Part shown: positions 2,386 to 51,667 of the stretch, one piece after another
How the letters are laid out: each line of letters begins with the position of its first letter
How positions within the stretch are numbered: the stretch's first letter is position 1
IMG/VR virus record: IMGVR_UViG_3300002052_000634
Span: 36,618 to 100,617 of that record
DNA from: a virus
Direction: 5' to 3' (one strand)
DNA length: 64,000 bases
The notes under the pieces: model-generated
What the model was told of the DNA's origin: nothing
The model's database searches: none
Seen by the model: the letters and a program-made list of their open reading frames with translations, nothing else
Translations under genes and position numbers: made by a program

Positions 2386-3013
2386 GTTCTTGTTTCCTTT
2401 TCCATTTATAATATCTTTTCATAATTTCTTCGAAGCTTACAGGATAGAAATTCCAACAATCTACACCAACATTGATAGCATCGGTAAAACCAAAGGAGGT
2501 TTTTATCCGTTTAATTTGCCATGCTAAATGAACATGCCCTACTAGATTTATTTTATAGTTAGGGTCGACGTGAGCAGGATTGTGTACTATATTTATTCTT
2601 TTACCTCCATATCGAATTACTAATCTTTCGATAGGAGTTTTTACTCCATTATTTCCGTCATGATTTCCTTTACAAAACAAAATTTTTCCATTCAATTTCT
2701 TCTCTATTTCTGTAGGTTTAATCGGAAGTCCTTCTCCTTTTTTTCCACCTGGAGAATTCTTAAAAATGAAATCGCCAACAAAAATAACTAAATCTTCTGG
2801 TTTTACTCTTTCATTCCAACGTCTAATTAATTCTTTATTCATTTTATCTAGAGATTCGAAACTAATAGCGAATTTTCGTTGTTCTTCTTGGGATTTATTT
2901 TTATAAATTTCATATAACTCTTTATCTTCTTTAGTCATAAATTCAGTACGACCTACATATTTTAAAATATTAGCATGGTTAAAGTGAGTATCTGCTGAAA
3001 ACCAAAGTTTCAT
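2348..3013 (-). CDS. Calcineurin-like metallophosphoesterase
   Basis: 221 aa. Metal-binding motifs appear in the usual order: DTHFNH (residues 8-13), GDFIF, GNHDG and, near the C-terminus, GHVHLAW. This is a compact single-domain phosphoesterase of the kind common in phages. The substrate is unknown; phosphodiester, cyclic nucleotide or RNA ends are possible. It overlaps the CCA-adding enzyme gene by 4 bases, so translation is probably coupled. RNA-end chemistry with that neighbour is an inference only. Confidence 0.8.
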   Translation of the reverse strand: MKLWFSADTHFNHANILKYVGRTEFMTKEDKELYEIYKNKSQEEQRKFAISFESLDKMNKELIRRWNERVKPEDLVIFVGDFIFKNSPGGKKGEGLPIKPTEIEKKLNGKILFCKGNHDGNNGVKTPIERLVIRYGGKRINIVHNPAHVDPNYKINLVGHVHLAWQIKRIKTSFGFTDAINVGVDCWNFYPVSFEEIMKRYYKWKRKQEHGEQNKHKKNSK

Positions 3014-4005
3014 TTCTTTCCTTTCTCATCTGCTTCTTTCAAAGGACTATCTTGTTCTAAGTGATGTAAGACTAAATTTTTTACAATTTCTCTTCTGTCA
3101 TTAGACCACTTTAAATACAAAGCTAATCTGGTCACAAATTCTACTGCTAACAATTCATGCTTTATATAATTACTTCTATCTTCTCTATCAGTTCTCACGA
3201 AAGGTTTACCAATATCATGTAACAGTCCTGCCCATCTAAGATTTATTTCTTTAGGAGTATTAAGAACTACTCTCTTTGTATGTTCCCACAAAGTAAAGTT
3301 ATGATGAGGGCTGTTTTGTTCATAAGCTATTTGCAAAGATAATTCTGGAAGTATAAAATTCAATAATTTTGTTTTTGCCAAAAATTCTAATCCTACTTCT
3401 GGATGGTCTGCCAATAGTAATTTATCGAGTTCGGCTACCCATCTTTCCTTACTAATCTGTAATATTTTATAATTCATAGAATTTACAGCATGATAAATAG
3501 AAGGATGTATTTCAAATTCTAACTGAGAAGCGAATCTAGCTACTCTAAGCATCCTCAAGGGGTCTTCTTTGAATCTCTCATTTGGCTTTCCAACACATCT
3601 AATAATTTTATCTTGAATATCTTTTCTTCCACCAAAAGGGTCAATGTATCTATCTCCTGTTTTAGCAATAGCGTTAATGGTAAAATCTCTTCTGCTTAAA
3701 TCAGCAGTGATGTCTTTGACAAAAGTAACTTCAGGTTTTCTACTTCCAGATTTATATTTTTCATTTCTAAATGTAGTTATCTCAATTAGATTACCGTTTA
3801 TTTTTACTCCTAAAGTCCCGAATCTTTTTCCTGTCAAATAAGGTCTTCTACCTGCTTTTCTAATAGAAGCTTCAATTTCATCTGGAGTTAAAGGAGTAGT
3901 AAAATCAAAATCTTTAGGAACGTTCCCTAAAATTTTATCTCTAACTGCTCCTCCTACCATATAGAGAGGACTAACTATTTTTTTGACTTCTTCGTATATA
4001 GTCAT
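3010..4005 (-). CDS. cca: CCA-adding tRNA nucleotidyltransferase with HD domain
   Basis: 331 aa. The N-terminal polymerase-beta-like head has GGAVRD and the metal pair DFDF, then RRDFTINA and the RxxRFA region typical of class II CCA-adding or poly(A) polymerases. A C-terminal HD-type segment has HTKR and HDIGK. The family repairs or adds CCA on tRNA 3' ends. The gene lies in the same leftward block as two CCA-ended RNA elements (6910-6972 and 10591-10660), which may be substrates. It overlaps the next nucleotidyltransferase gene by 35 bases. Poly(A) polymerase activity is the main alternative. Confidence 0.85.
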   Translation of the reverse strand: MTIYEEVKKIVSPLYMVGGAVRDKILGNVPKDFDFTTPLTPDEIEASIRKAGRRPYLTGKRFGTLGVKINGNLIEITTFRNEKYKSGSRKPEVTFVKDITADLSRRDFTINAIAKTGDRYIDPFGGRKDIQDKIIRCVGKPNERFKEDPLRMLRVARFASQLEFEIHPSIYHAVNSMNYKILQISKERWVAELDKLLLADHPEVGLEFLAKTKLLNFILPELSLQIAYEQNSPHHNFTLWEHTKRVVLNTPKEINLRWAGLLHDIGKPFVRTDREDRSNYIKHELLAVEFVTRLALYLKWSNDRREIVKNLVLHHLEQDSPLKEADEKGKK

Positions 4006-6972: not shown

Positions 6973-7131
6973 TTATTTTTCTAATTTCGTTAATTCATCA
7001 TCAGTAATGGTACAACATACAACATTCTCATCTTCATTATAATAAACAGCATAACCTTGTCTAACTAGAGCAGTTATAAGTTGGTCTGTATAATTTTTGT
7101 CTAATATTTGGATTTTAAGTTCGTATTTCAT
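6973..7131 (-). CDS. Hypothetical protein, 52 aa
   Basis: Starts MKYELKIQILDKNYTD. An alternating beta/alpha pattern and a CC pair near residue 39. It overlaps the end of the Mom-like gene by 17 bases and ends exactly at the start of the structured RNA. Confidence 0.6.
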   Translation of the reverse strand: MKYELKIQILDKNYTDQLITALVRQGYAVYYNEDENVVCCTITDDELTKLEK

Positions 7132-7720
7132 TTAGAATTTTCTTTCTGGTTTTTTTATTCAATATTTTTATAAATCTTTTTTTTAAAGGTTTTTTCTTTA
7201 ATTCTAATCTATTGCCATAAATTTCTTTCATTTTCCCAACTGCTTGTATTCCATGTTTATCATACAAGGTTCTCGGTGAAATTCTTTTACCATCAATAAA
7301 AAATAAAGGATGACCGTCCTTTCCAATAATTCCATCAAATATCCATCCACTTGCTTTATATACCATTCCATTATGACCAGCAAAAGGGTCTGAATATGTA
7401 ACAATCAAATCATAATTATATGATTTTTTGATTTTTTTTATTACTTCTGCTGTTAAACTACTCATACTCCATTTGTGGTTATCTTTACCGACCATTCTTG
7501 CTAATTCAATAACTTTTATATTTTTTTGACTGTATTTTTTTTCATAAATCCTCGACCTACAATTTGTAAATACCAAACAACCTTCTTCGTGTCCATAAGC
7601 AAATAAAATCCCTTTTACTTCTCCAAGATAATGCCATTTATTTAACATAGTATTTGCTATTTTTTTATCCAATTTGATAATTGGTGGAGTTTTCTGTAAT
7701 CCGCTTAATTTGTAATTCAT
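7115..7720 (-). CDS. Mom-family (GNAT-fold) DNA-modification-like protein, copy 2
   Basis: 201 aa. The core VTYSDPFAGHNGMVYKASGW matches the YxD-x(4-5)-G-x(2)-YxA-x(2)-[FW] signature of Mom-type acyltransferase-fold proteins. These phage enzymes change adenine in DNA to N6-carbamoylmethyl-adenine and so block restriction. The second half differs from copy 1: a lysine-rich tail replaces the KHRYI...PYPKG segment. It may therefore modify another base or act as a different GNAT transferase. Start ATG at 7720, 1 base after the upstream gene. The family assignment is from motif memory. Confidence 0.6.
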   Translation of the reverse strand: MNYKLSGLQKTPPIIKLDKKIANTMLNKWHYLGEVKGILFAYGHEEGCLVFTNCRSRIYEKKYSQKNIKVIELARMVGKDNHKWSMSSLTAEVIKKIKKSYNYDLIVTYSDPFAGHNGMVYKASGWIFDGIIGKDGHPLFFIDGKRISPRTLYDKHGIQAVGKMKEIYGNRLELKKKPLKKRFIKILNKKTRKKILNEIRT

Positions 7721-13774: not shown

Positions 13775-14138
13775 AAACAAAGTCACATTATATCATTATA
13801 GCAATAAAGATTTAAAGGTTATAAATCCTTTATACTTCGGAGATAATAACTATACTTTTAATGATGTAAAGGCTTGTGACATAAAACGGACTTTTTTTTA
13901 TCTTAACAATGAGCCTTTGGAATATATTTTTAAAAAAGCGAAATACCTTTACAAGGTGACAATAGATAAAAAAAATCTTTATGACTTGAAGCTTGACAAG
14001 CTAGGACTAAAAGCAAAATATAACGGAGATATTAAAGGCTTATTATCTTACTGTAAGAGGCATTATAAAGGTATTATTTATAATGTAGGCTTTGACATAG
14101 CAAGCTTATTTTATAACGTAAAGGCTAGCAAAGTATAA
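13767..14138 (+). CDS. Hypothetical protein, 123 aa, possibly ADP-ribosyltransferase-like
   Basis: Begins MNKNKVTLYHYSNKDLKV. ATG at 13767 is preferred, with GGAG 8 nt upstream; a GTG 9 bases earlier overlaps that site. The LYHYS start followed by a beta-rich core recalls small phage ART-fold proteins that modify host targets. No catalytic Glu can be assigned, so the function is uncertain. Confidence 0.55.
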   Translation: MNKNKVTLYHYSNKDLKVINPLYFGDNNYTFNDVKACDIKRTFFYLNNEPLEYIFKKAKYLYKVTIDKKNLYDLKLDKLGLKAKYNGDIKGLLSYCKRHYKGIIYNVGFDIASLFYNVKASKV

Positions 14139-14195
14139 AAAAATACCTTCTATAATGCGATTACAGAGGCGATAATTGACAAGGCATACCATAGC

Positions 14196-14220
14196 ATAGG
14201 CAAGCGGTAAACGTGCCTAT
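14196..14220 (+). other. Hairpin with 7-bp stem
   Basis: ATAGGCA pairs with TGCCTAT around an 11-nt loop, followed about 20 nt later by TTTTTT. It may contribute to termination after 14138, but the T-run is far. Confidence 0.35.
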
Positions 14221-14380
14221 AAACGCAAATAAAAGCGATTTTTTCAAGAGGTATAGAGATATACAAGGCGATAATTGACAAGCTATATATAGGTATATAG
14301 TATATAACATAGTATAGTATATATTATATATAGGTATAGTTTAAAATAAATAAAAGGCAGATTTTTTGATAATAGAAAAG

Positions 14381-14527
14381 TTATTAAAAGACTTTAAAAA
14401 GTGGTAAAAAAAGTTTACGGATAAAAAAGTTATTAAAAGACTTTATAAAGATGTTAAGAAAATAAAAAGGAAGATAACTTATTAAAAGACTTAATAAAGT
14501 GGTAAAATAAGAAAAATAAAAGTTAGA
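14381..14527 (+). repeat. Three tandem repeats with exact 49-bp period
   Basis: TTATTAAAAGACTT begins at 14381, 14430 and 14479. Each unit continues with a WAWAAAG-WKGTWAR core and an A-rich tail of lower similarity. Exact spacing in a noncoding stretch resembles iterons or partition/centromere sites. Confidence 0.65.
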
Positions 14528-27689: not shown

Positions 27690-28208
27690 ATGCCAACTGG
27701 ATATGGAGAAGCAATATACTTATCAGAATTAGAGGCAAAAGTTGAACGACTTGAAGCAGAGGTTAAGAAGTATAAACGTTTGTCTCTAAAAGACCCTCTC
27801 ACGAATTTATGGAACGAAAGAAAACTGAAAGAAGATTTAAAACGTTATGTTGAAATTCAGAAAAGGTCAGAAATAAAATTTACTGTTGCTCTGATAGATA
27901 TAGATAATTTTAAACAATATAATGATAAATACGGACATGAATATGGAAATAAAATTTTAAAACAAGTAGCTAAAGTATTGAAAAATTCTATAAGAAAATA
28001 TGAAAATGTTTATCGAATAGGAGGAGGGGCTGATGAATTTATAATAATATTATCTCACAGTAACAATCCTTTATTTGTAATTGAACGAATAATAGACCGA
28101 TTATTAAAAAAAGATATTAATTGTAGTATAGGGTATGCTACTTTAGATAAAGATATATTAAAAACAATAGACGAAAGAATGTATGACTTTAAACAAAAAA
28201 AGAAATGA
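27690..28208 (+). CDS. GGDEF-domain protein (diguanylate cyclase-like)
   Basis: 172 aa. N-terminal coiled coil (residues 12-30), then a GGDEF domain: DPLTNLWNERKL, metal site ALIDIDNFKQYNDKYGHEYG (D70, D72), and the signature RIGGGADEF at 109-117. That signature has two extra residues (GG-GA-DEF) compared with canonical GG[DE]EF. Fold and metal residues are intact, so nucleotide cyclase activity is possible but altered substrate or loss of activity must be considered. A phage-borne GGDEF could change host c-di-GMP or feed a defence or counter-defence signal. It is co-translated with the exported coiled-coil gene. Confidence 0.8.
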   Translation: MPTGYGEAIYLSELEAKVERLEAEVKKYKRLSLKDPLTNLWNERKLKEDLKRYVEIQKRSEIKFTVALIDIDNFKQYNDKYGHEYGNKILKQVAKVLKNSIRKYENVYRIGGGADEFIIILSHSNNPLFVIERIIDRLLKKDINCSIGYATLDKDILKTIDERMYDFKQKKK

Positions 28209-30355: not shown

Positions 30356-30704
30356 ATGTTTACAAGAAAAAAGTATAACATATTTAGAACATTATATTAC
30401 AAAGAAAAGAAAAAGACCTTTGCCATATTGGAAAGAAAAAAAGATAAAGACTTTAATTAAAAGAAAACAAAAAGGATTAAATAAACTTACTACTCAAATC
30501 TTAAATTCTCCTTTATATAAATTGGCAGAAGCAGAAATAATAAGGGAAGGAAAAGTTCATAAATTTACTGTAGACGGACAATTAAAATATGAAATCCCAC
30601 CTGCTCAAACTTTATTAATGATGTTAAAAATAGTAGATGTAACAAATAAACAAGGACAAAAAAATAAATTAGACGAATATTGTAGGAATTATTATGCTAA
30701 CTAA
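30342..30704 (+). CDS. Hypothetical protein, 120 aa
   Basis: Basic N-terminus (KKRKRPLPYWKEKKIKTLIK) and helical C-terminus. Overlaps the RuvB-like gene by 14 bases and the recombinase gene by 11. Possibly DNA-binding. Confidence 0.6.
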   Translation: MKLSKCLQEKSITYLEHYITKKRKRPLPYWKEKKIKTLIKRKQKGLNKLTTQILNSPLYKLAEAEIIREGKVHKFTVDGQLKYEIPPAQTLLMMLKIVDVTNKQGQKNKLDEYCRNYYAN

Positions 30705-31485
30705 ATTTAAAAATTGGTTGACAGTAAATGGCAAATCCGAAGCTACTATTATAGCTTATCTTCAAAGAATAAAAGAATTTTTAAAAGAAAATTCTATTGA
30801 CGATATAACAGAAGAAATTATAATTAATTATTTGTTAAAATTAAAAGAAACTAATTCTAATTCAACTGTAAACGGTTATAGATGTGCTATTAAATCCTTT
30901 TTGGAATTTCTAAAAAAAGATATAACATTACCTAAACAATTAAAAATAGAAGAAAAATTACCAGAATTTATTACCAGAGATATATTTGAAAAAGAAGTAA
31001 TAAAAGTAGCAGAATGTATATGTCCTAATCCTATGCGAACTAAAGCAGTATTATATTTTCTATTTTTTACAGGAATTAGAGAAAATGAATTGTTATCTCT
31101 TAAAAGAAAAGATATAGATTTAGAAAATAGAACTGCCAAAATTTATAATAAAAAAGGAAAAAAAGAAAAGATAATTATCTTTACTGAAAAAGTAAGAGAT
31201 ATATTAAAATACTATTTCTCCGTAGAGATAGAACAAAATAACGCTTTTAATATTACTGATAAACAAATAGAATATATATTTAATTTATTGAAACCTAAAT
31301 TTAAAAATATAAATTTACACCCTCATATGTTTAGACATTCTTTTGCTACTTATCTAAGAAATAGAGGATTTTCTATTGAAGATATTAAAGAACTGTTAGG
31401 ACATAAAAGTATTCAATCAACTATGAGATATGCTCATGCAGATATTAAAGATATTAAAGAAAAATATGATAAAAAAATAAAGTAG
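30694..31485 (+). CDS. Tyrosine recombinase (XerC/D-type)
   Basis: 263 aa. N-terminal SAM-like core-binding domain, then catalytic motifs: Arg in FTGIRENELLSL, HPHMFRHSFATYLRNRGFS (HxxR), LLGHKSIQSTMRYAH (His/Trp position and the nucleophile Tyr). Acts in site-specific recombination. It could integrate the phage or resolve multimers; no att site was identified nearby. Length is close to XerC/D. Confidence 0.85.
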   Translation: MLTKFKNWLTVNGKSEATIIAYLQRIKEFLKENSIDDITEEIIINYLLKLKETNSNSTVNGYRCAIKSFLEFLKKDITLPKQLKIEEKLPEFITRDIFEKEVIKVAECICPNPMRTKAVLYFLFFTGIRENELLSLKRKDIDLENRTAKIYNKKGKKEKIIIFTEKVRDILKYYFSVEIEQNNAFNITDKQIEYIFNLLKPKFKNINLHPHMFRHSFATYLRNRGFSIEDIKELLGHKSIQSTMRYAHADIKDIKEKYDKKIK

Positions 31486-39820: not shown

Positions 39821-40273
39821 ATGATATTTAAAGTAGCATATTCTAAAGGAAATAGAAATTCAATTAAAGTTGTAGATAATGAAGGAAAAGAAGTTTGGAT
39901 GGGTTGTTCTAAAAATGTTTATAGTTGGTGTAAGAAAAATTATAACGAAGGTGATGAAGTTGATGTAGAATATACAGTTAAAGATGGACAATATACCGCC
40001 ACTAGAGTTACAAATAAAAGACAAAGTAATTACAATCCTCTTCCTAAAGATGAGACTAGACCTTCTAAGCCAACACCTTCTGCACCAACAAAAAAATATA
40101 CTGGCAATTATATGAACAGAAAACATCCAGAAGAATCTAAACAGATAAGAGCCTTGAGTATCTTATCTTCTATTTGTGAAGCTATTCAAGGTCTTGCAGG
40201 ACATATAGACCCAAACAATATAGGGGAAATTATTGAAACTTTATTTGACCGTTTTGATAAAAAACTTCCATAA
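39821..40273 (+). CDS. Hypothetical protein with OB-like N-terminus, 150 aa
   Basis: Residues 1-65 are beta-rich (KVVDNEGKEVWMGCSKNVYS, DEVDVEYTVKDGQYTATRVT), followed by a Pro/Thr linker and a helical C-terminus. The layout resembles small ssDNA-binding or RPA-like proteins, but no signature confirms it. AGGAGG upstream. Confidence 0.5.
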   Translation: MIFKVAYSKGNRNSIKVVDNEGKEVWMGCSKNVYSWCKKNYNEGDEVDVEYTVKDGQYTATRVTNKRQSNYNPLPKDETRPSKPTPSAPTKKYTGNYMNRKHPEESKQIRALSILSSICEAIQGLAGHIDPNNIGEIIETLFDRFDKKLP

Positions 40274-40295: not shown

Positions 40296-41270
40296 ATGAA
40301 AAAATATAAATGGCTGACGTATATTTTGTTAATTTGTATATCGTTGACTTTATTTAGTCAGCAACTAGAAATAAGAAGTTATAATTCTTTGATAAAAGGA
40401 AATCAAGAAGTGATTACAGAACTTCAGGGATATACAGAAATGATAATAGGATTACTTCTACAGTTGGCTATAAAACAAAATATCATAGCTAATCAGGTAT
40501 CTGTCTTACAGGAAGAATCAGTAGAAAGAACCATCTACCCTGCTATCAGAAAACTTACTCACGTGATTTTGCAGTTAGTAAATAATCAGAAAGAAATGGC
40601 AACTTATTTAAGACAGAATATAGACCCGAAGCCTTTCTTTTTGAAATTAAAAATTGCTACAGTTGAAGTGAGAGTAGGTAAAGCAGGTGGAGCGGGGACA
40701 ATTATTAAAGTAACTGACGATTATCTTTATATTTTAACAGCTAAACATGTGGTAGATTGTAAAGGTGAAATTGAGATTCAGGCAACTAACGTTGAAAATC
40801 AATGCTTTGTAAGAATCAAAGATATTAATAGAGAAAATGTTTACAAAAGCGACGAAATAGATATGGCAGTTATTAAAGTTCCTAAACCAGAAGGTAAGTT
40901 TATTACGTTAGATTTAGCGACGGAAAGACCTGAAATCGGAACTAAAATTTATACAATAGGACACCCTCTTAGTATAGGTTATACTGTTCAAACAGGTATA
41001 GTTTCTAACTATACTAAAAGAAATTTTGGAGATAATAAAAAAGAATATATGATAATTTCTGCTCCTGCATTTAATGGTAATAGCGGAGGAGCATGTGTGA
41101 ATTGTTATAATGAAGTAATTGGTATAGTAGTTGGCATAGCGTATATAAGAGAAGAAAAATTATTTAATGATAATAATTTTTATATAACTCATATGGTATT
41201 TGTTGTAACGATAGATGATATAAATAAATTTATAGAGGAAGTAGAAATTGAAATATCCGATAATAACTGA
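40296..41270 (+). CDS. Membrane-anchored trypsin-like serine protease
   Basis: 324 aa. Signal/anchor WLTYILLICISLTLFSQQLE at the N-terminus, a helical stretch to about 120, then a chymotrypsin/HtrA-like fold: His in LTAKHVVD, Asp in DMAVIKV, Ser in NGNSGGACV. Probably acts outside the cytoplasm on envelope or host proteins. Next to deformylase and metallopeptidase genes. HtrA without PDZ domain. Confidence 0.8.
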   Translation: MKKYKWLTYILLICISLTLFSQQLEIRSYNSLIKGNQEVITELQGYTEMIIGLLLQLAIKQNIIANQVSVLQEESVERTIYPAIRKLTHVILQLVNNQKEMATYLRQNIDPKPFFLKLKIATVEVRVGKAGGAGTIIKVTDDYLYILTAKHVVDCKGEIEIQATNVENQCFVRIKDINRENVYKSDEIDMAVIKVPKPEGKFITLDLATERPEIGTKIYTIGHPLSIGYTVQTGIVSNYTKRNFGDNKKEYMIISAPAFNGNSGGACVNCYNEVIGIVVGIAYIREEKLFNDNNFYITHMVFVVTIDDINKFIEEVEIEISDNN

Positions 41271-41676
41271 TATTAATTTTCTTAGAAAAAGAAGTGAACC
41301 AGTTGAACAAGATAGAGTAACTTCTATAATTAAAGCTTTAGAAGATAGTCTTGATATTAAAAAGGGAGTTGGGTTAAGTGCTATACAAATAGGATTGCCT
41401 TTACGAGTAGGAATAATAAGATTACCTAATTGTAAATTTGATTTATGGAATTCTAAAATAATAGAAAAAAGTTATCGTTTTAGATTTCAAGGAGAAGGAT
41501 GTTTAAGTATTCCAGGAATTTATGTAGATACTATTAGATATAAAGAAATATTATTAGAGAATGGAGATGGCAGAAAATATTATTTGGAAGGAATAGAAGC
41601 TATAGTTTGCCAGCATGAAGTAGACCACTGCAACGGTATCACTATGTTAGATAGAAAATGGCGAAAGAGAAGATGA
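41248..41676 (+). CDS. def: Peptide deformylase, TTG start
   Basis: 142 aa. Three canonical PDF motifs: GVGLSAIQIG, EGCLSIPG (metal Cys) and QHEVDH (metal His pair). Removes formyl groups from nascent proteins; phage PDFs are known in marine phages. Starts at TTG 41248 inside the end of the protease gene. Shorter than host PDFs at the C-terminus, as in other phage enzymes. Confidence 0.85.
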   Translation: MKYPIITDINFLRKRSEPVEQDRVTSIIKALEDSLDIKKGVGLSAIQIGLPLRVGIIRLPNCKFDLWNSKIIEKSYRFRFQGEGCLSIPGIYVDTIRYKEILLENGDGRKYYLEGIEAIVCQHEVDHCNGITMLDRKWRKRR

Positions 41677-42110
41677 AAAATATTGATAAAGAAAAAATAA
41701 AGTTTTTTGGAAAAACTACTTATAAATTCTGTTCTAATTTTAAAATTAAAAAACCTATATTTATAAAACAAGACAGAAGACTAAAATCAACAACTGCTGG
41801 AATTTGGTTAGTTAATCATAAAAAAAATAATAGAAAGGGATACTGTATTAAATATAATCCTGAACATATATCTAAAATAGCATATTGGAAAATAACCTAT
41901 GTAATTTTACATGAATTAGGTCACGTTAAAACTAAACAATCTGGAAATGAATTTGATAATGAATATCGAGCAGAAAAATTTGCTCATGATATGATTAAAA
42001 AACATTTTTCTTTGCAGTATCCTAGATATTGTGAATATGTAGACTGGTATATAAATTATGCTAAAGAAGATATTTATAAAAAGGTATTTAGAAAATTAAG
42101 AAAGAATTAA
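41673..42110 (+). CDS. Zinc metallopeptidase (HExxH)
   Basis: 145 aa. VILHELGHVKTKQSGNEFDN carries HELGH with a downstream Glu (YRAEKFAHD), as in minimal gluzincin/M78-like peptidases. ATG 41673 overlaps the deformylase stop (ATGA); an earlier in-frame ATG at 41658 is possible. May cleave a repressor or host protein; substrate unknown. Confidence 0.75.
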   Translation: MKNIDKEKIKFFGKTTYKFCSNFKIKKPIFIKQDRRLKSTTAGIWLVNHKKNNRKGYCIKYNPEHISKIAYWKITYVILHELGHVKTKQSGNEFDNEYRAEKFAHDMIKKHFSLQYPRYCEYVDWYINYAKEDIYKKVFRKLRKN

Positions 42111-42275: not shown

Positions 42276-43502
42276 ATGATAAGAAATAAAATCAATAGAA
42301 AAATACCCCTAACGATAGCTTTATTATGTATTATTCAATATTTTAATCAAGGTATCAGTAGTTTACCTCAACAGAGTTTGTACTATTTGTTAAGAGAATA
42401 CTGGAACTTGTCAGCCAGTATAATAGGATTAATAAGTTGGATAATAGGATTAGCTTGGTATTTAAAAATTTTTGCAGGATATTTGATTGACAATGTAAGT
42501 ATAAAAGGAAAACGGACTACATATTATTTAAGAGGTAGTTATATTGGATTATTATTAGTTTATTTATATATCATCTTTTTTGGTTTTAATTTAATTAGTC
42601 TTATTATTACAGGAATAATTATAAATCTTTGTATAACATTTGCCGATGTTTCAGTTGATAGAGAAATGGTTATAGCTGAGTGTAAGTATAATTTACATGG
42701 ACGATTGCAATCGCTCCAATGGACAAGTCTTGGTATAGCAGGATTGATAGTAGCTCTTGGAGGAGCTTGGATTGCAAAATATTTTCCTGAACATATCAAT
42801 TATAAAATTGCTTATGGATTATCAAGTTTAGTTCCTTTAGGAATGTTAATTTATTTAATTAAAGGATTTAAAGAGAAAACGGTTAGAAAAATAAAGAAGA
42901 TTCTTTTTTTTCAGATATTAAAAAATAATTTGAAAAAAATTAACAATAAAAAATTATTATTAGGATTATTATTTGTTACTTGTTTACAGTTTTGTCCTTC
43001 TTTTGGAACAGTTTTAATGATAAAGATAAGAGAAAACTTACACATTGATAAAATGTTTTTAGGTTATTTAGGGGCTATGGGAACTGTTTTAGGAGTGGTC
43101 GGATATATTCTTTATTATAAATGGGCTTATAAATTTCCAATGAAACAATTATTATATTTTATGATATTATTTTCAACAATTACAAATTTATTTTATTTAT
43201 ATTTACCTAATAAATGGATTTTATTAGTTTATAATTTAGCGTTTGGGGCTTTTGGAGGAATTACTTTTATGACTTTATTAGCTTTCTTTGTAAAAATTAT
43301 TCCTATTGGTAGTGAAGCTTTTTTTTATGCCTTAATAACTTCAATTTCAAATTTTGCTTCCAGAGGAGGAAATTTTATAGGAGGAATTATTTACGATTGC
43401 AGTAATTATTCTATAACTGTAATCGTTAGCAGTATATGTACATTTCTATGTATATTTTTCATTCCTCATTTAAAAATTGGAGAAACACATGTTAATACCT
43501 AA
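42276..43502 (+). CDS. BT1-type (folate/biopterin-like) MFS transporter
   Basis: 408 aa with about 12 hydrophobic segments. IQYFNQGISSLPQQSLYYLL, then GLAWYLKIFAGYLIDNVSI, TFADVSVDREMV and GRLQSLQWTSLGIAG match the folate-biopterin transporter (BT1) family. Complete transporters of this size are rare in phages. Probable substrate is a pteridine or folate, but BT1 members also carry other compounds. Followed by a SemiSWEET and a KdsA gene. Confidence 0.7.
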   Translation: MIRNKINRKIPLTIALLCIIQYFNQGISSLPQQSLYYLLREYWNLSASIIGLISWIIGLAWYLKIFAGYLIDNVSIKGKRTTYYLRGSYIGLLLVYLYIIFFGFNLISLIITGIIINLCITFADVSVDREMVIAECKYNLHGRLQSLQWTSLGIAGLIVALGGAWIAKYFPEHINYKIAYGLSSLVPLGMLIYLIKGFKEKTVRKIKKILFFQILKNNLKKINNKKLLLGLLFVTCLQFCPSFGTVLMIKIRENLHIDKMFLGYLGAMGTVLGVVGYILYYKWAYKFPMKQLLYFMILFSTITNLFYLYLPNKWILLVYNLAFGAFGGITFMTLLAFFVKIIPIGSEAFFYALITSISNFASRGGNFIGGIIYDCSNYSITVIVSSICTFLCIFFIPHLKIGETHVNT

Positions 43503-43749
43503 TTTGCTCTATGTAATTTCAGGTACATTATGGGCGATAGAATTATTACCTCAACTTTTACGAACCTATAAACGAAAAAAAGTAGGAGATATATCCTTAT
43601 TATTTTCTTTAATATGCTTTATATCATTTTTATGTTTTATGACAGCTATTATACTCTGTAAAAATTGGGTATTAGTATTTACTCATATATTTCCTTTTAT
43701 TTGTAATATTTTATTTTTGTTACAAGTACTTACATATAGGAGAAATTAA
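43489..43749 (+). CDS. SemiSWEET / PQ-loop small transporter
   Basis: 86 aa, three transmembrane helices, with the PQ motif in LLPQLLRTYKRKKVGDIS. SemiSWEETs dimerise to pass sugars. ATG 43489 has GGAG upstream; a TTG 12 bases earlier is less likely. Overlaps the BT1 gene by 14 bases and abuts kdsA, suggesting a sugar-related cassette. Confidence 0.75.
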   Translation: MLIPNLLYVISGTLWAIELLPQLLRTYKRKKVGDISLLFSLICFISFLCFMTAIILCKNWVLVFTHIFPFICNILFLLQVLTYRRN

Positions 43750-44540
43750 TGAAAAAATTAATTTTTATATGCGGTCTTTGTGTTATCGAGAACAAAAAAG
43801 AAACCATAAACATTGCTAAAAAATTGAAGGAGATAACTGACAAATATCCTGTTGAATTTATTTTTAAAGCGAGTTATGATAAAGCAAATAGAACTTCTGA
43901 CCTTTCATTTAGAGGAATCGGATTGATGCAAGGTATATATGTTTTAAGTGAAATTAAAGAAATGGGTATTAAAGTTTTGACAGATATTCATTGTTCTCAT
44001 CAAGTTAAAATGGCAGGGTGTTGTGCTGATGTTATTCAGATACCTGCATTTTTATGTAGACAAACTGATTTAGTTAAAGCAATCGGGGCGACAGGAAAAA
44101 CTGTCAATATTAAAAAAGGGCAGTTTCTTGCTCCAGAAGACGTAAAATATATAATTCAAAAGATAGAACATACAGGTAACAATGATATAATGATTACAGA
44201 ACGAGGTACGTGTTTTGGTTATCATAATTTAATCGTAGATTATCGTTCTTTTTTGATATTAAAGAAAATGGGTTATCCTGTCATTTTCGACGCAACTCAT
44301 GCCCAACAACGACCATCGGCAGGGGATGGAATATCAGAAGGTAATCGAGAATTTACAGAACCTATGATATTTGGAGCTATTGCTTGTGGAGTAGATGGAA
44401 TATTTATTGAAATCCATCCTGACCCGACAAAAGCAAAATCTGATAGTGCTACATCTCTTTATCTCGATAACGTAGAATCCTTATTGAAGAAAATGGTAGC
44501 AATTAAAAATGTTATCGAAACTTTGACAGAAAGCAAATAA
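43749..44540 (+). CDS. kdsA: 3-deoxy-D-manno-octulosonate 8-phosphate synthase (KdsA)
   Basis: 263 aa TIM barrel. FKASYDKANRTS, VLTDIHCSHQV, DVIQIPAFLCRQTDLV, NIKKGQFLAPEDVK, MITERGTCFGYHNLIVD and FIEIHPDPTKAKSD are KdsA signatures (PEP + arabinose-5-phosphate to KDO-8-phosphate), the first step to the LPS inner-core sugar. KDO use implies a diderm host or surface modification during infection. Slightly shorter than cellular KdsA (about 280 aa). Other enzymes of this DAHP/NeuB-like superfamily are possible but the match is good. Confidence 0.85.
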   Translation: MKKLIFICGLCVIENKKETINIAKKLKEITDKYPVEFIFKASYDKANRTSDLSFRGIGLMQGIYVLSEIKEMGIKVLTDIHCSHQVKMAGCCADVIQIPAFLCRQTDLVKAIGATGKTVNIKKGQFLAPEDVKYIIQKIEHTGNNDIMITERGTCFGYHNLIVDYRSFLILKKMGYPVIFDATHAQQRPSAGDGISEGNREFTEPMIFGAIACGVDGIFIEIHPDPTKAKSDSATSLYLDNVESLLKKMVAIKNVIETLTESK

Positions 44541-44551
44541 TATGATATAAT
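44523..44551 (+). promoter_or_regulatory. Promoter, TTGACA-N17-TATAAT, extended -10
   Basis: TTGACA 44523-44528 lies in the kdsA 3' end; TATAAT 44546-44551 preceded by TGA. Followed by AGGAG and the ClpP-like gene. Confidence 0.8.
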
Positions 44552-44561
44552 AGGAGAAACA

Positions 44562-45194
44562 ATGGAAAACAAAAAAAGAAATCGTAGAAAGGCAGATAGA
44601 AAAGAGACTCCATTAAATCCTAATGCGATACTTGATAAAAGAAGGATAATTACTTTGTTTGGAGAAATCAATAAAGAACTCAGTAAAAAAGTTATAAAAG
44701 AATTAATTAAATTGGAAAATGTGTCTGATAAACCTATAACTTTATTAATAAATTCTCCAGGTGGAGATTGCACCGAAGGACTTGCAATCGTAGATGCTAT
44801 GAAGATGAGCAATAGCCCCATTAATACTATAATCACAGGAATGTCTGCTTCAATGGCAGGAATAATATCTATCTGTGGAGATATAAGAATGATAACTAAA
44901 AATGCTTTCTGGATGGCTCATCCAATGGCAGGGGGTACTTATGATTATAAACAACACGTAATAGATTATATAGATTTTTTGAAAAGATTAGACAAAAAAA
45001 TGGAAATAATATTAAACCAACATACAAAATTGACAGAGGAAGATATTGAAAAATTTACTCATGGACAGTTATGGTTAGATGCAGAAGACTGTATTAAGAA
45101 AGGCGTTTGTGACGAAATAATTAATAATGAATATGTTCAGCAGAGAATTCCATTATCGTTTCAAGTACAGAAAAAAAAGAAGGGAAAGAAATGA
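44562..45194 (+). CDS. clpP-like: ClpP-like serine protease
   Basis: 210 aa with a basic N-terminal extension. ITLLINSPGGDCTEG (oxyanion Gly), TGMSASMAGIIS (nucleophile Ser) and FWMAHPMAG (His) match ClpP. Phage ClpP homologues often act as prohead proteases, or could work with a host unfoldase. C-terminal KKKKGKK tail. Confidence 0.8.
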   Translation: MENKKRNRRKADRKETPLNPNAILDKRRIITLFGEINKELSKKVIKELIKLENVSDKPITLLINSPGGDCTEGLAIVDAMKMSNSPINTIITGMSASMAGIISICGDIRMITKNAFWMAHPMAGGTYDYKQHVIDYIDFLKRLDKKMEIILNQHTKLTEEDIEKFTHGQLWLDAEDCIKKGVCDEIINNEYVQQRIPLSFQVQKKKKGKK

Positions 45195-45400
45195 AACATC
45201 CTGTATTAAAGTTAAAGAAAAAAACGAAATTAAAAGGAATTCGTAAAATAAAAAACGAAATTCGAGAAATAGTCCATGATTGCCTCCTAGATATAGAAGA
45301 CTATATTCTAAATGATATTATGAGTTATTTAAAAAAGATAGGGGTTATCTATGCGGAAAAGAAGACGAAGAATAAAAAGAAAAACAAAAGGAAAAAATAA
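45191..45400 (+). CDS. Small very basic protein, 69 aa
   Basis: Starts MKHPVLKLKKKTKLKGIRKI; helical middle, C-terminal Lys run. ATGA overlap with the ClpP-like gene. Unknown. Confidence 0.55.
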   Translation: MKHPVLKLKKKTKLKGIRKIKNEIREIVHDCLLDIEDYILNDIMSYLKKIGVIYAEKKTKNKKKNKRKK

Positions 45401-45557
45401 AAATAGGAGAAAACGTAACTGGTGGATAAAACGGTATGATGTTCCAGTTACTCATAAATATACCCGACTTACTACAGAGTTAATTATTTTGTTGGAATTA
45501 TTATGGATAGCTATCGAAGTATCTTGGTTTGTAATTGATGTATTTATAAAGAGATAA
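45351..45557 (+). CDS. Basic single-pass membrane protein, 68 aa
   Basis: First 25 residues are almost all Arg/Lys (MRKRRRRIKRKTKGKNKNRR), then a C-terminal transmembrane helix (about 40-64). GGGG 8 nt upstream. Unknown. Confidence 0.5.
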   Translation: MRKRRRRIKRKTKGKNKNRRKRNWWIKRYDVPVTHKYTRLTTELIILLELLWIAIEVSWFVIDVFIKR

Positions 45558-45558
45558 A

Positions 45559-45996
45559 ATGGAAGATATATATATTCAATTAATTAAAATAGGACTATCA
45601 GTTTTTTTAGGTTTGTTTATAGGATTTGAAAGAGCACAGCAAGATAAACCTACAGGATTAAGAGACGTTGCTATGGTTACTTTAGGAGCTACGTTATTTG
45701 CAATTATAGGATTTGAATTTCATAACGAAATGAATATGGACATGACTCGTTTATTATATGCTCCTGTTATAGGTATTGGATTTATGGCAAGTGGCGTTAT
45801 CTTACAGAGCAAAACAAAAACCAAAGGACTAACGTCAGCAGGGGTGTTATGGGTTATGGTTGCAGTAGGGCTTCTTTGTGGTATAGGTAAATATATTTTA
45901 GCTATAATATCTTCTATAGTCATATATTTGTTACTTAAATTAAAATATGTAACTGTTAAAATAAGAAAGAGAAAAAAGAGATGCAAAATTCTATAA
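45559..45996 (+). CDS. MgtC family membrane protein
   Basis: 145 aa, four to five helices. GLFIGFERAQQDKPTGLRDV, IGIGFMASGVI and KGLTSAGVLWVMVAVGLLCG are MgtC/SapB signatures. Bacterial MgtC inhibits F1Fo-ATP synthase and helps at low Mg. A phage copy may alter host energy state. Lacks the C-terminal ACT-like domain, i.e. the short form. Confidence 0.8.
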   Translation: MEDIYIQLIKIGLSVFLGLFIGFERAQQDKPTGLRDVAMVTLGATLFAIIGFEFHNEMNMDMTRLLYAPVIGIGFMASGVILQSKTKTKGLTSAGVLWVMVAVGLLCGIGKYILAIISSIVIYLLLKLKYVTVKIRKRKKRCKIL

Positions 45997-46191: not shown

Positions 46192-48072
46192 ATGACGAAT
46201 ATTTCCAAACAAATAATTTTAAAATATTTGTTACCGTATCTCAAAGCGAAAGATATACCTTACAGAAAATGCGGTAAAGTAACAATGGTAAAATGTCCTT
46301 TCTGTGGGAAAGAACCTTTTACTGCTAATATACTTCCTAATACTAATATTGTAAAATGTTTACCATGCGAAAAGACATATAATCTTTTAGGTATTGTTAA
46401 AGAAGTTGAATTTAAAGATAAAGATAGTACAGAAGAAGACCTTATTCAACACGTAAAAGAATTATTAAATATAGATGTTACTACTGCAAAAGATGAAAAA
46501 GAAATAAGAAGACATTTAAATTTTTATGAACAACAAGGATTTGATTTAGTGCCCATTGTAAAAGGTAAGAAAATCCCTTGTGAAGCTGGATGGACAAATA
46601 AATCTCATAAAGATAAATCAGAATGGATACGTTGGTTGAATGACGGACTCAATATAGGAATTAAAACTGGTAGTAAAAGTAATATATTAATTCTAGATAT
46701 AGACCAAAAACCAGTACCAGAAGAACTAAAAAAATTATTAGAAAATACTTTAGTACAAGAAAGCACCAATGGATTTCATTATTTTTATAAATATGACGAA
46801 GAAATTCCTAAGACACGAATAGATGAATTTAAAATTGATGTAGAATCAGAAGGTGGTCAGGTGGTGATTTATCCAAGTATAATTCAAGGAATACAAAGAA
46901 AAATTTTAGAATTAAAGCCTATAATATCTTTACCTCCAGAATTAAAAAAACTGATAAAAGAAAAGATAACAGTAGCTAGAAAAACAGATAGCGAACAAAT
47001 AAGAGAAGATATAGAGACTGAAGCTTTCAATATGGGAATAGGAGTTCAAGGAAAACGGAATTCTTCTCTTATTAAATTAGGAGGAATAATTCGCAAACAT
47101 TTAAATGCGAAAAATACAGAAGCAATGCTTCATATAATAAATAATCACATATTTAAGACTCCTCTACCATTTAGAGAAGTTACTGCTATGGCGACTGAAT
47201 TAGATAAATATATCAAAATGGACAATCAAGAATTAGCTCACGAAATTTTGAAGTATTTAAAAGAAGTGGAAAGTTCTACTAAGAACGATATAGAATTGGC
47301 GGTAGTGGGAGGATTCACTTCTGGAGAAAAGAAAAAAATTGTAAATTCCACATTAAATTATTTACAGAGGGAAAATAAAATTATAAGAAAAGGGAAGTAT
47401 TATAAAGCTCTAAAAAGTATGGAATGGAAAGATAATATTTTGGATGCAGGTGAACCTGTTAAATTTAATGTTCCCTATTTACATGACATAGCTTTTTTCC
47501 AATATGAAGATTTAGTTGTCATAGGTTCTCAAAATAAATACGGGAAAACAATTCTCTGTATGAATATTATTAAAAGATTGGTTGAACAAGGATTAAAACC
47601 TTACTACATTTATAATGAAACAGGAGCAAGGTTCGCAAAGACAGCTTTGAAATTAGGAATGAAAGACGGAGATTTTAATCACGTCTTCGTAACTGACCCT
47701 GAAGAAGTTATATTTGAACATAATTCATTAGTTATTTTCGATTGGGTAAAGCCAACTGATTTTGCGAGAACTGATAATGTTTTTGCTAAGTTGATAGAGA
47801 AAGCGAAAAAGACCCATAGTTTTCTTATCTGTTTCGTTCAATTAAAGAAAGACAATTCTTTCTTTGCTCAGAATATGATAGGACAATTCCCTGCTTTACT
47901 TTGTAGATATTTATATGAAAAAGAAGACGACGGGACTTACACAAAATTCCAAATAGACGCTATGAGAGACCCGAAAATATTGAACGGAAAAAAGACATTT
48001 GAAATACCTTGTATGTATGATTGGAATACCAAAGAAGTCAAAACTATAGAAGAAATTAAAGGCGAAAAATAA
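46192..48072 (+). CDS. Primase-helicase fusion (zinc ribbon, AEP prim-pol, DnaB-like ATPase)
   Basis: 626 aa. Zinc ribbon CPFC/CLPC at residues 35-59. AEP prim-pol domain about 110-245 (GFDLVPIVKGKKIP, ILDIDQKP with the catalytic DxD, ESTNGFHYFYK, GGQVVIYPSI). A helical linker, then a RecA/DnaB-like ATPase about 430-620 with IGSQNKYGKT (Walker A) and SLVIFDWV (Walker B). Makes primers and opens DNA at the fork. Adjacent RuvC-like, RecA and PolB genes complete a replication module. Confidence 0.8.
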   Translation: MTNISKQIILKYLLPYLKAKDIPYRKCGKVTMVKCPFCGKEPFTANILPNTNIVKCLPCEKTYNLLGIVKEVEFKDKDSTEEDLIQHVKELLNIDVTTAKDEKEIRRHLNFYEQQGFDLVPIVKGKKIPCEAGWTNKSHKDKSEWIRWLNDGLNIGIKTGSKSNILILDIDQKPVPEELKKLLENTLVQESTNGFHYFYKYDEEIPKTRIDEFKIDVESEGGQVVIYPSIIQGIQRKILELKPIISLPPELKKLIKEKITVARKTDSEQIREDIETEAFNMGIGVQGKRNSSLIKLGGIIRKHLNAKNTEAMLHIINNHIFKTPLPFREVTAMATELDKYIKMDNQELAHEILKYLKEVESSTKNDIELAVVGGFTSGEKKKIVNSTLNYLQRENKIIRKGKYYKALKSMEWKDNILDAGEPVKFNVPYLHDIAFFQYEDLVVIGSQNKYGKTILCMNIIKRLVEQGLKPYYIYNETGARFAKTALKLGMKDGDFNHVFVTDPEEVIFEHNSLVIFDWVKPTDFARTDNVFAKLIEKAKKTHSFLICFVQLKKDNSFFAQNMIGQFPALLCRYLYEKEDDGTYTKFQIDAMRDPKILNGKKTFEIPCMYDWNTKEVKTIEEIKGEK

Positions 48073-49532: not shown

Positions 49533-49689
49533 TCCTTATTTTACTATATCACAAGCTAAAAAAGCGATAAGACCAACTTTATATTGGGTTAGACGAAAAT
49601 TAGTTAGACAATTATATTTTTTAAAACAAGAACTGATTCAAGAGTTAAACAAATCTTGGCTAACAAAATGGATGAAAATATTTATATGA
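49522..49689 (+). CDS. Hypothetical basic protein, 55 aa
   Basis: Starts MKISPYFTISQAKKAIRPTL; basic/hydrophobic helices. Overlaps the RecA-like gene start by 34 bases. Moderate support. Confidence 0.45.
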   Translation: MKISPYFTISQAKKAIRPTLYWVRRKLVRQLYFLKQELIQELNKSWLTKWMKIFI

Positions 49690-50387
49690 ATAATTTTCAA
49701 GACAAAATAAAAGCATTAGAACAACAATATCGTAATATACCTAATTTCAAAACTTCTAAACTTATTCCTACTGGTATAAAAGAGTTAGATGGAATATTAG
49801 ACGGTGGATTTCCAAGAGGTAATATTATAGAAATTTTTGGAGACCATTCGGTAGGAAAGACAACACTTGCTTGGCAAATAATTAAATCGGCTCAAAAACA
49901 AGAACTTATTAGTCTTTATTTCGATTGTGATTATAGTTGGAATTCTAAATATGCTAAACAAATAGGCATAGATATAGATAAATCTGATGTAGTAATAGCT
50001 AAACCTAATGAACAATGGTTACAAGCCATTACTCATTTAATTAATAAAGGACTTATAGACGTATTAGTAATAGATACGGTATCATCTTTAGCAATAGATA
50101 AAGAGAGATTGTTAGATATTTTGAAGAGATTATCGAAAAAAATTAAAGAAAATAATGTTTTGGTAATTTTATTGAATCAAGTTCGCACTAGTTTTAATCA
50201 TAAAATTGTTGTAATGTATGAACAGTTAATGAAATTATATGGAACGATTAGGATATACTTAACCCATAAAGAATATAAGACAAAACATTTTAATAATATA
50301 ACGAAAATTATTCAGGCAGATATTATACAGAATAAATTGGATAATTGTCAATCAGCAACTTTTACAATAGAAGTGCAAAATGGATAA
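49656..50387 (+). CDS. RecA-family ATPase, paralogue 1 (TTG start)
   Basis: 243 aa. LIPTGIKELDGILDGGFPRG, Walker A FGDHSVGKTT, Walker B VLVIDTVSSL, and an L1/L2-like LNQVRTSFNH. Shorter than RecA; lacks a C-terminal domain. It could be a RecA mediator or a KaiC/RadA-type ATPase. Initiates at TTG 49656. One gene separates it from the larger paralogue. Confidence 0.75.
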   Translation: MANKMDENIYMNNFQDKIKALEQQYRNIPNFKTSKLIPTGIKELDGILDGGFPRGNIIEIFGDHSVGKTTLAWQIIKSAQKQELISLYFDCDYSWNSKYAKQIGIDIDKSDVVIAKPNEQWLQAITHLINKGLIDVLVIDTVSSLAIDKERLLDILKRLSKKIKENNVLVILLNQVRTSFNHKIVVMYEQLMKLYGTIRIYLTHKEYKTKHFNNITKIIQADIIQNKLDNCQSATFTIEVQNG

Positions 50388-50595
50388 TAAATGGATTAAA
50401 GAATTTGAAGATGAATTAGTCATTTTTAGAGGACATATTGACCCTGATTTTAATAATCATAGTCTATTAGCTTTATTAGAAAAAAATTTAAATTGGAATA
50501 CTAACGAAGAAAATAAATTTTTACGTTCAACAATTGAAGTCAGAGTTAGTTCTAGTAAAGGAGCTATATTGATTGAAAGGATAAATAATGAATAA
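50380..50595 (+). CDS. Hypothetical acidic protein, 71 aa
   Basis: Starts MDNKWIKEFEDELVIFRGHI; small alpha/beta. Overlaps both RecA-like genes by 8 bases, so co-translation is likely. Unknown. Confidence 0.6.
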   Translation: MDNKWIKEFEDELVIFRGHIDPDFNNHSLLALLEKNLNWNTNEENKFLRSTIEVRVSSSKGAILIERINNE

Positions 50596-51667
50596 AAAAT
50601 TAACAAAAGAAGAACGACTCACTTTGCTCAAAAAGAGTATGCAAGAGATAAATAAATCAGCCAAAGAGGACGTTATTCATTTTGGAAAAGACGAAGATGA
50701 TGTAGAAAAATTGCCTACGTCTATTCCAGAAATAGATGGCCTTTTAGGCGGTGGAATAGCATACGGACGAGTAACGACAGCATGGGGAAGTGAAGGATGT
50801 GGGAAAACAAGTCTAGCATATTATCTTACAGCTTCTGCTCAGAAACAAGGTAAGATAGTTTATTATATAGCTTTAGAGCCTTTCGATAAAGAAAGAGCTA
50901 AAAAATTTGGCGTTAAATTAAATGATTTAGTAATGGGTCATTTTCCAAAAGCGGAACAATCTTTAGATAGTATAGTAAAATTTGCTAGAGAAGGATTAGT
51001 AGATGTTATAATTTTAGATAGTATACATGCTCTTTCTCCTAAAGGAGAACAGGAAGAAAAAAGCGGTAAACAAAAAAGTTTAGATACTGATACTATGGCT
51101 TTATTAGCTCGTAAACTGTCTCAATTTTTTAGAGTGGCTATTGACCCTATAGGAAGAAATAAAGTGGCTCTATTCCTCATAGGACAAGCTAGAATGAGCG
51201 TAGGATTTATAGCATTAGAAAAATTAAGTGGAGGATTTGCTTTAAAACACTATTCTAAAACTATTATACGTATGAGACGTGGTACTAAAGCTGATTCTCC
51301 AGTAGAAAAATATAAAGAATATTTTACTAAAGATGGTAAACAATGTTATCGTACTAAAAATGAAATAGTAGGTTTTGATTGTGTAGTCGAATTAGAAAAG
51401 TCCCAAATTACAGGAGCAAAATCTGAACGTACAAAAATACACCTTCCATTTTATTATGAATCAGGATTTACAAAAATAGATAAATCTATATGTCCTAAAT
51501 GTGGAGATAAATTTGGAGAAGATGGGCTTTGTAAATGTCAGAGAGAAGAATTAAGGTATCCTCCCAAAGTAGAAGAAACTAAAACTTCTGGAGACACTGG
51601 AAATGACCAATCTCCACCAAAAAAACGTAAAAGAGGAAGACCTAAAAAACAAAAGGAAAATAAATAA
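50588..51667 (+). CDS. RecA/UvsX-like recombinase with zinc ribbon and AT-hook tail
   Basis: 359 aa. LPTSIPEIDGLLGGGIAYGR, Walker A WGSEGCGKTS, Walker B VIILDSIHAL, loop segment IGQARMSVG and GGFALKHYSKTIIRM. After about residue 300: CPKCGDKFGEDGLCKC (zinc ribbon), a Pro-rich linker and KRKRGRPKKQK, an AT-hook. Strand-exchange ATPase for repair or recombination-dependent replication; the tail should favour AT-rich DNA such as this genome. Confidence 0.8.
   Translation: MNKKLTKEERLTLLKKSMQEINKSAKEDVIHFGKDEDDVEKLPTSIPEIDGLLGGGIAYGRVTTAWGSEGCGKTSLAYYLTASAQKQGKIVYYIALEPFDKERAKKFGVKLNDLVMGHFPKAEQSLDSIVKFAREGLVDVIILDSIHALSPKGEQEEKSGKQKSLDTDTMALLARKLSQFFRVAIDPIGRNKVALFLIGQARMSVGFIALEKLSGGFALKHYSKTIIRMRRGTKADSPVEKYKEYFTKDGKQCYRTKNEIVGFDCVVELEKSQITGAKSERTKIHLPFYYESGFTKIDKSICPKCGDKFGEDGLCKCQREELRYPPKVEETKTSGDTGNDQSPPKKRKRGRPKKQKENK

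Follow-up and report, generated by a model that had tools for sequence, protein, structure and literature searches.

Genes for the synthesis of 3-deoxy-D-manno-octulosonic acid (KDO) are known in phages (PMC5332604), for example those for KdsA and KdsB in Synechococcus phage S-SCSM2R. The huge phage LR756500 encodes KdsA together with KdsB-like and KdsD-like proteins, MgtC/SapB proteins occur sporadically in phages such as Bacillus phage G (gp262), and the ClpP fold is found in head maturation proteases (phrog_94). No match to the BT1/folate-biopterin family of transporters (PF03092, TIGR00788), nor to the SemiSWEETs, of which bacterial structures are available (4rng, 4qnc), was obtained in 50,697 INPHARED phage records. 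Here we describe a locus of the IMG/VR virus record IMGVR_UViG_3300002052_000634 (100,617 bases) at which members of all five families lie close together. The window that was analysed comprises 64,000 nucleotides (bases 36618-100617 of the record), and all coordinates given for this virus refer to it. Five intact open reading frames (ORFs) at 42276-45996, all on the + strand, encode a BT1-family transporter, a SemiSWEET-type protein, KdsA, a ClpP-like protease and MgtC. An original prediction, made from the sequence alone, had named these genes and treated them as a single metabolic cassette. The five identities and their placement were borne out by profile matches (to PF03092, PF04193, TIGR01362, PF00574 and PF02308), as was the rarity of both transporter types in phages, whereas the proposed unit proved too short and its genes were found to come and go separately. 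They form the right half of a longer variable island, which extends from 40296 to ~46172 between an ssb-like gene and a Prim-Pol gene. We consider it probable that this is a variable host-interaction island, situated between core replication genes of an undescribed group of tailed phages of ~100 kb, whose hosts are most likely Omnitrophota.

Genes for a tape measure protein, a baseplate-type protein and other structural proteins are present on the - strand of the record outside the window, and genes for an integrase and PolB inside it. The source virus, which is uncultivated, is therefore a tailed phage and may be capable of integration. Using BT1 profiles, nine other phage contigs were retrieved (L002-L008, L291 and L292; 53-73% identity), and further relatives were recovered via Prim-Pol (L176, of 101.6 kb, and L178), via KdsA (L096, 65%) and via SemiSWEET (L294, L296 and L297). 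The gene order around and within the island in these relatives begins with flap exonuclease, ssb-like protein, ClpP, one or two trypsins, peptide deformylase, M50/RseP-like site-2 protease (S2P) and ImmA-like protein, and continues with calcineurin-like protein, LOG-like protein, BT1, SemiSWEET, M42 peptidase, KdsA, small basic protein, MgtC and Prim-Pol. Synteny with substitutions was observed in ~10 contigs, among which the S2P, M42 and LOG genes have been gained or lost. MgtC was present in 8 of 11 contigs and BT1 in 8 of the same 11, while SemiSWEET was found in a minority of relatives (4 of 8 contigs tested, plus L096, L294, L296 and L297). KdsA was seen only in the window and in L096, having been checked across the whole contigs for G000-G003 and in the fetched flanks of the other relatives. 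Only SemiSWEET with KdsA (in L096 separated by one gene) and BT1 with SemiSWEET recurred as pairs; otherwise the distribution differed gene by gene, and the genes are not co-inherited in the related phages as the unit expected of an auxiliary metabolic gene cassette. ClpP, which usually lies upstream beside the trypsin-like protease, has been relocated in the window contig. The island is absent from G217:C94 (L257), a 4.1-kb contig binned into an Omnitrophota metagenome-assembled genome (MAG), in which a flap exonuclease gene is present and 182 bp separate the ssb-like gene from Prim-Pol. In L291 and L292 the subsets S2P, BT1 and ClpP, and BT1, M42 and MgtC, are clustered in other flanks; this favours a functional set over a site that is tolerant and nothing more.

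Chance, or a chimaeric assembly carrying a piece of host genome, was rejected as the origin of the locus, as its genes recur among phage genes in independently assembled contigs (BT1 in 9 contigs beyond the window, SemiSWEET and MgtC in at least 7 each). BT1 was the best-conserved protein compared, with 69-73% identity between phages whose Prim-Pol proteins share 43-55% and whose MgtC proteins share 37-48%. The ratio of nonsynonymous to synonymous substitution rates (dN/dS) was ~0.2 for BT1 and 0.26 for KdsA by simple counting, with synonymous sites near saturation; values of ~0.2-0.3 indicate that both genes are under purifying selection.

The BT1 gene (42276..43502, +) encodes a transporter of the major facilitator superfamily (MFS) with 12 predicted transmembrane (TM) helices. 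Hidden Markov models support the transporter and KdsA assignments, and for BT1 the score to PF03092 was 65.3 bits against a cutoff of 22 (E 5.7e-18). An AlphaFold2 model (predicted local distance difference test score 81) likewise has 12 TM helices, and a fold search of the PDB returned the MFS fold with generic MFS proteins only, so that the structure points to no substrate; no significant PDB sequence was matched by the BT1 profile. Assignment as a general MFS protein or as AmpG was ruled out since the BT1/folate-biopterin models score best, and TIGR00788, the folate/biopterin subfamily, was the best match for all phage and Omnitrophota copies scanned. The score to TIGR00788 was nevertheless far under its cutoff (47.3 bits against 216.4; 47-80 bits across the phages). 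The protein was therefore not filed as a folate/biopterin carrier, so that the original prediction is supported for the BT1 branch but not for the substrate.

To place these transporters, BT1 was looked for in cellular genomes. Matches were obtained in 96 of 384 Omnitrophota genomes (best E 3e-72, about 60 with E <1e-56) and in 12 of 199 genomes of Elusimicrobiota, the phylum to which an Endomicrobiia genome belongs (best 3.5e-36), but in none of 287 genomes in the phylum of the Syntrophaceae genome G013; a mixed set gave 1 of 16, and that one is Omnitrophota. A scan of genome contigs with the first BT1 alignment gave no match because the patterns of that alignment are phage-specific. In Omnitrophota chromosomes the gene stands in the context pgk-tpiA-secG-BT1. 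The phage BT1 clade groups with Omnitrophota BT1s (100/97) on a long stem, and since identity is only 30-34%, the capture would be old or evolution fast. L296 and L297 carry a BT1-family protein that is 28% identical to that of the window and occupies the same slot beside SemiSWEET, yet clusters with another lineage of Omnitrophota (100/99). By these trees, the BT1-family transporters at this slot have two separate origins, and two captures in one slot are evidence of selection.

KdsA (43749..44540, +) scored above the equivalog cutoffs of TIGR01362 (346.4 bits against 314) and PRK05198 (356.8 against 242) and is assigned to the metal-dependent (class II) KDO-8-phosphate synthases. Among solved structures, the nearest is that of the metal enzyme from Aquifex (1fwn, 4e-75), whose metal ligands we take to be Cys11, His185, Glu222 and Asp233; Cys11, His184, Glu221 and Asp232 of the phage protein align with them. 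As the metal ligands are kept, KdsA is probably an active enzyme. A direct search of the 384 Omnitrophota genomes revealed 55-60% identity to about 25 of them, and the best 80 loci of a GTDB scan were all <=53% identical. Donors in Nitrospirota, Aquificota and others were rejected (best ~50% identity against 60% in Omnitrophota). The proteins of the window and L096 fall inside an Omnitrophota clade, with a support of 98 in the Shimodaira-Hasegawa-like approximate likelihood ratio test of a quick tree and of 98/95 in a careful tree. Gene phylogeny, which had been proposed for finding the donor lineage, thus places both KdsA and BT1 with Omnitrophota. The kdsA loci of the closest Omnitrophota genomes, as read from their sequences, have the order kdsB-kdsA-kdsD-kdsC. 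No KdsB, KdsC or KdsD was found among the window proteins scanned. In comparison with the tailed-phage KdsAs of S-SCSM2R and LR756500, to which it is <=44% identical, the window KdsA is without KdsB or KdsD, adjoins transporters and groups with Omnitrophota KdsA. KdsA alone is ordinary in phages: relatives occur in at least 548 IMG/VR viral contigs, which were found by an alignment-based scan, whereas a single-protein scan of viral contigs gave no relatives. Another virus, L099, has a KdsA within the Omnitrophota clade of the careful tree and is a possible further Omnitrophota phage. The record L010 (CAKLQF020000008.1, 'Acinetobacter phage MD-2021a') resembles a bacterial chromosome (pyrG-kdsA-eno, pca genes) and is thus not evidence for a phage KdsA.

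The SemiSWEET gene (43489..43749, +) likely starts at the ATG at 43489 behind a GGAG, not at the TTG at 43477. Its product shares the PQ-loop repeat, the PQ motif and a length of ~90 aa with bacterial SemiSWEETs (PF04193 6.3e-9, 35.9 bits against 22; PDB 4rng 6.8e-5), while the score to the NCBIfam model SemiSWEET_2 was 26.8 bits against 80. Trp48 and Asn64 of 4qnc, which we take to be substrate-pocket residues, are replaced by Phe54 and His70 (numbered from the TTG start). The pocket His is common to the window, L096, L008 and L004, i.e. four of the five phage proteins read, and the G001 copy keeps Asn. With these W/N residues lost, a sugar role for the phage protein appears weakened. Matches to Omnitrophota as a possible donor of SemiSWEET were weak (21-34%).

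The ClpP-like serine protease (44562..45194, +; PF00574 9e-37) has its nearest relatives among the head proteases of phages (phrog_94 head maturation protease, 2e-44), with which it shares Ser and His of the ClpP fold. The canonical Asp position is Phe in the family alignment, and with 77 bits against 309 for the equivalog TIGR00493 the protein does not qualify as an ATP-dependent ClpP. Unlike the phrog_94 proteases its gene does not lie between portal and capsid genes, but in the replication-side island near a trypsin gene and MgtC. MgtC (45559..45996, +) is a short MgtC/SapB protein of 145 aa that consists of the TM domain only. It scored 99.9 bits to PF02308 against 31.4 (1.7e-28), covered residues 14-123 of the 231-aa NCBIfam MgtC model and remained at 60-63 bits against equivalog cutoffs of 214-255, so that it is not a full-length protein with the C-terminal domain; a PDB search with its profile gave nothing significant. 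Full-length MgtC acts as an inhibitor of ATP synthase. An effect on this enzyme had been considered in the original prediction, but the role is not transferable to the phage protein, which comprises only the membrane domain. The phage protein shares this domain with the sporadic phage copies such as gp262, and differs from them as a core gene of its phage group. The description of all five genes as host-like thus fits KdsA and, less closely, BT1, but neither the core gene MgtC nor the phage-type ClpP. L006 differs at the MgtC slot (14122-14478), where it encodes another small membrane protein that weakly matches SWEET/MtN3 (0.0035).

Based on the affinities of KdsA and BT1 and on the close Prim-Pol of the contig binned into the Omnitrophota MAG, the host is likely a member of Omnitrophota. 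One relative (a contig of 3300035698) comes from an Antarctic-lake co-assembly that yielded Omnitrophota MAGs (PMC8542988). Judged by PolB and Prim-Pol, the closest isolated phages are about 23-30% identical, too low to give a host clue. Several points weigh against this assignment. The link is drawn from gene affinities and binning, and the G217 contig, at 4.1 kb, could be misbinned. The phage BT1s are distant from the host BT1s and sit on a long branch, with BT1 sampled in three phyla and 16 mixed genomes. In an approximately unbiased test, holding the phage pair with all non-Omnitrophota KdsAs was not quite rejected (p 0.065), and we regard the placement of KdsA in Omnitrophota as strong, not absolute. 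Finally, none of the 27 Omnitrophota genomes with the closest KdsA matched BT1 (hypergeometric 3e-4, ignoring kinship), which indicates that the donors of KdsA and BT1, or the hosts, differ. Were the genomes with the closest KdsA those of the hosts, a transporter that the host is without would be supplied by the phage, which is a lead and not a result.

As proposed originally, the locus would be one metabolic cassette in which two transporters feed substrate to KdsA, so that lipopolysaccharide (LPS) precursors are made with which the envelope is changed or receptors are masked. The ends of the BT1, SemiSWEET and KdsA ORFs overlap or abut, so that the three genes are packed gap-free and appear translationally coupled; together with GGAG-type ribosome sites before SemiSWEET, KdsA and ClpP, this makes a single BT1-SemiSWEET-KdsA-ClpP transcript probable. 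SemiSWEET again precedes KdsA in L096, and phage KDO genes as such are known. However, BT1 is without a KdsA partner in most relatives and L096 has KdsA without BT1, the sugar pocket of the PQ-loop protein is not conserved, and KdsB, KdsC and KdsD are missing from the proteins scanned. The substrates of KdsA are phosphorylated or made inside the cell, so that a sugar facilitator is unnecessary. We therefore judge this reading unlikely, although feeding of LPS synthesis is plausible for KdsA alone. A further reading is a takeover of the envelope stress response, in which DegS-like, RseP-like S2P and ClpP-like proteases would form a phage cleavage cascade like that of RseA destruction, switching host stress regulation or clearing membrane proteins, while the transporters, KdsA and MgtC would act on the same envelope. 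The three protease types stand together in L003, L004, L005, L006 and L008, the S2P matches RseP and has HExxH, and the trypsins have an N-terminal hydrophobic anchor and mostly GNSG. Against it, no S2P homologue was found in the 100-kb contig, the DegS matches are under cutoff, the ClpP resembles head proteases and has no canonical Asp, and neither a phage ClpX nor an anti-sigma target was identified; we regard it as improbable.

A mere storage site for morons, i.e. an insertion-tolerant region with independent, partly neutral cargo and without a common theme, would account for the mosaic presence and absence of genes, the relocated ClpP and the RNase T gene, which is placed elsewhere in L096. 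It is very unlikely, as the same gene types, under purifying selection, are found again in many divergent phages, a single slot has received BT1-family transporters on two occasions and BT1 is better conserved than the replication proteins. The host-interaction island thus remains the reading that we favour. It stacks genes predicted to act on the envelope and proteome (DegS-like, ClpP-like, peptide deformylase, MgtC, BT1, SemiSWEET-type and, here, KdsA), to which the relatives add the RseP-like S2P and an M42 aminopeptidase. BT1, with or without the PQ-loop protein, may move some small metabolite across the inner membrane of a small-genome host. KdsA would add flux at the committed KDO step from phosphoenolpyruvate and arabinose-5-phosphate, relying on KdsD, KdsC and KdsB of the host, so that outer-membrane synthesis would be sustained or altered, and MgtC may adjust membrane energetics.

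The island as a whole comprises, in this order, a DegS/HtrA-like trypsin, a peptide deformylase, an ImmA-like HExxH protein, a small zinc-finger-like protein, BT1, SemiSWEET, KdsA, ClpP, two small basic proteins, MgtC and a DnaJ-type zinc-finger-like protein. At its left edge lies the ssb-like core replication gene (39821..40273, +), whose order after the flap exonuclease is conserved in relatives, and at its right edge the Prim-Pol primase (46192..48072, +; PF09250 2e-16), with the relatives' copies at the identities given above. The trypsin-like protease (40296..41270, +; PF13365 8.9e-20) has a hydrophobic N-terminus and a GNSGG motif, and matched DegS TIGR02038 under cutoff (3.9e-13). It is followed by the peptide deformylase (41248..41676, +; PF01327 3e-28) and a weakly assigned ImmA/IrrE-like metalloprotease-like protein (41658..42110, +; PHROG metallo-protease, 0.006; HELGH motif), which has homologues in several relatives. 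One of the small basic proteins (45191..45400, +) is a recurrent neighbour of MgtC, being 50-65% identical in L002, L008, L096 and L176 and also present in L294, L296 and L297. The S2P of the relatives matched PF02163 (1.1e-35) and RseP TIGR00054 (7.8e-24), and PHROGs gave no family for it. ClpP-like, DegS-like and RseP-like proteases, three protease types of the sigma-E/RseA cascade, adjoin in L003 (5320-8688), L004 (6947-9049), L005 (6720-8877), L006 (4785-8108) and L008 (4683-7854). Intein-like or homing-endonuclease-type inserts were seen in L003 (2819-4669; flap exonuclease), L008 (7858-9438; calcineurin-like gene) and L186 (14847-16262; a gene of the G000 structural region).

Elsewhere in the window, a Mom-family protein of the DNA-modification anti-restriction type (7115-7720, -; PF25680 2e-19) and a stand-alone GGDEF domain with the motif GGGADEF, possibly a phage-borne diguanylate cyclase (27690-28208, +; PF00990 3.8e-30), are encoded. 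The integrase is of the tyrosine type (30694-31485, +; PF00589 1.6e-30) and suggests a temperate or integrating life style. Two adjacent RecA-like genes (49656-50387 and 50588-51667, +) are 29% mutually identical, and several relatives show one. A CCA-adding type nucleotidyltransferase with an HD domain is encoded at 3010-4005 (-), though the transfer RNA scan of the window, like the Rfam scan, found nothing.

In the literature searched, no Omnitrophota phage was found. It also appears to hold no description of a BT1-type transporter that is conserved above all other genes compared in its phage group, of the double capture of such a transporter, or of phages linked to Omnitrophota. Through this locus, BT1-type MFS transporters and SemiSWEET-like proteins join the proteins known to be encoded by phages. 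It also supplies a candidate group of Omnitrophota phages with hallmark genes that can be recovered from IMG/VR. Whether phages provide small-genome hosts with the uptake of nutrients or cofactors can thereby be tested directly. We further propose, tentatively, that this is a dedicated envelope-takeover island of phages of the uncultivated phylum Omnitrophota. One slot of it would have taken up BT1-type metabolite transporters from that phylum on at least two independent occasions, beside a PQ-loop carrier put to a new use and, for most relatives, a set of DegS-like, RseP-like and ClpP-like proteases. If true, the island would represent a new class of phage auxiliary system that combines nutrient uptake with control of envelope proteolysis for small-genome hosts.

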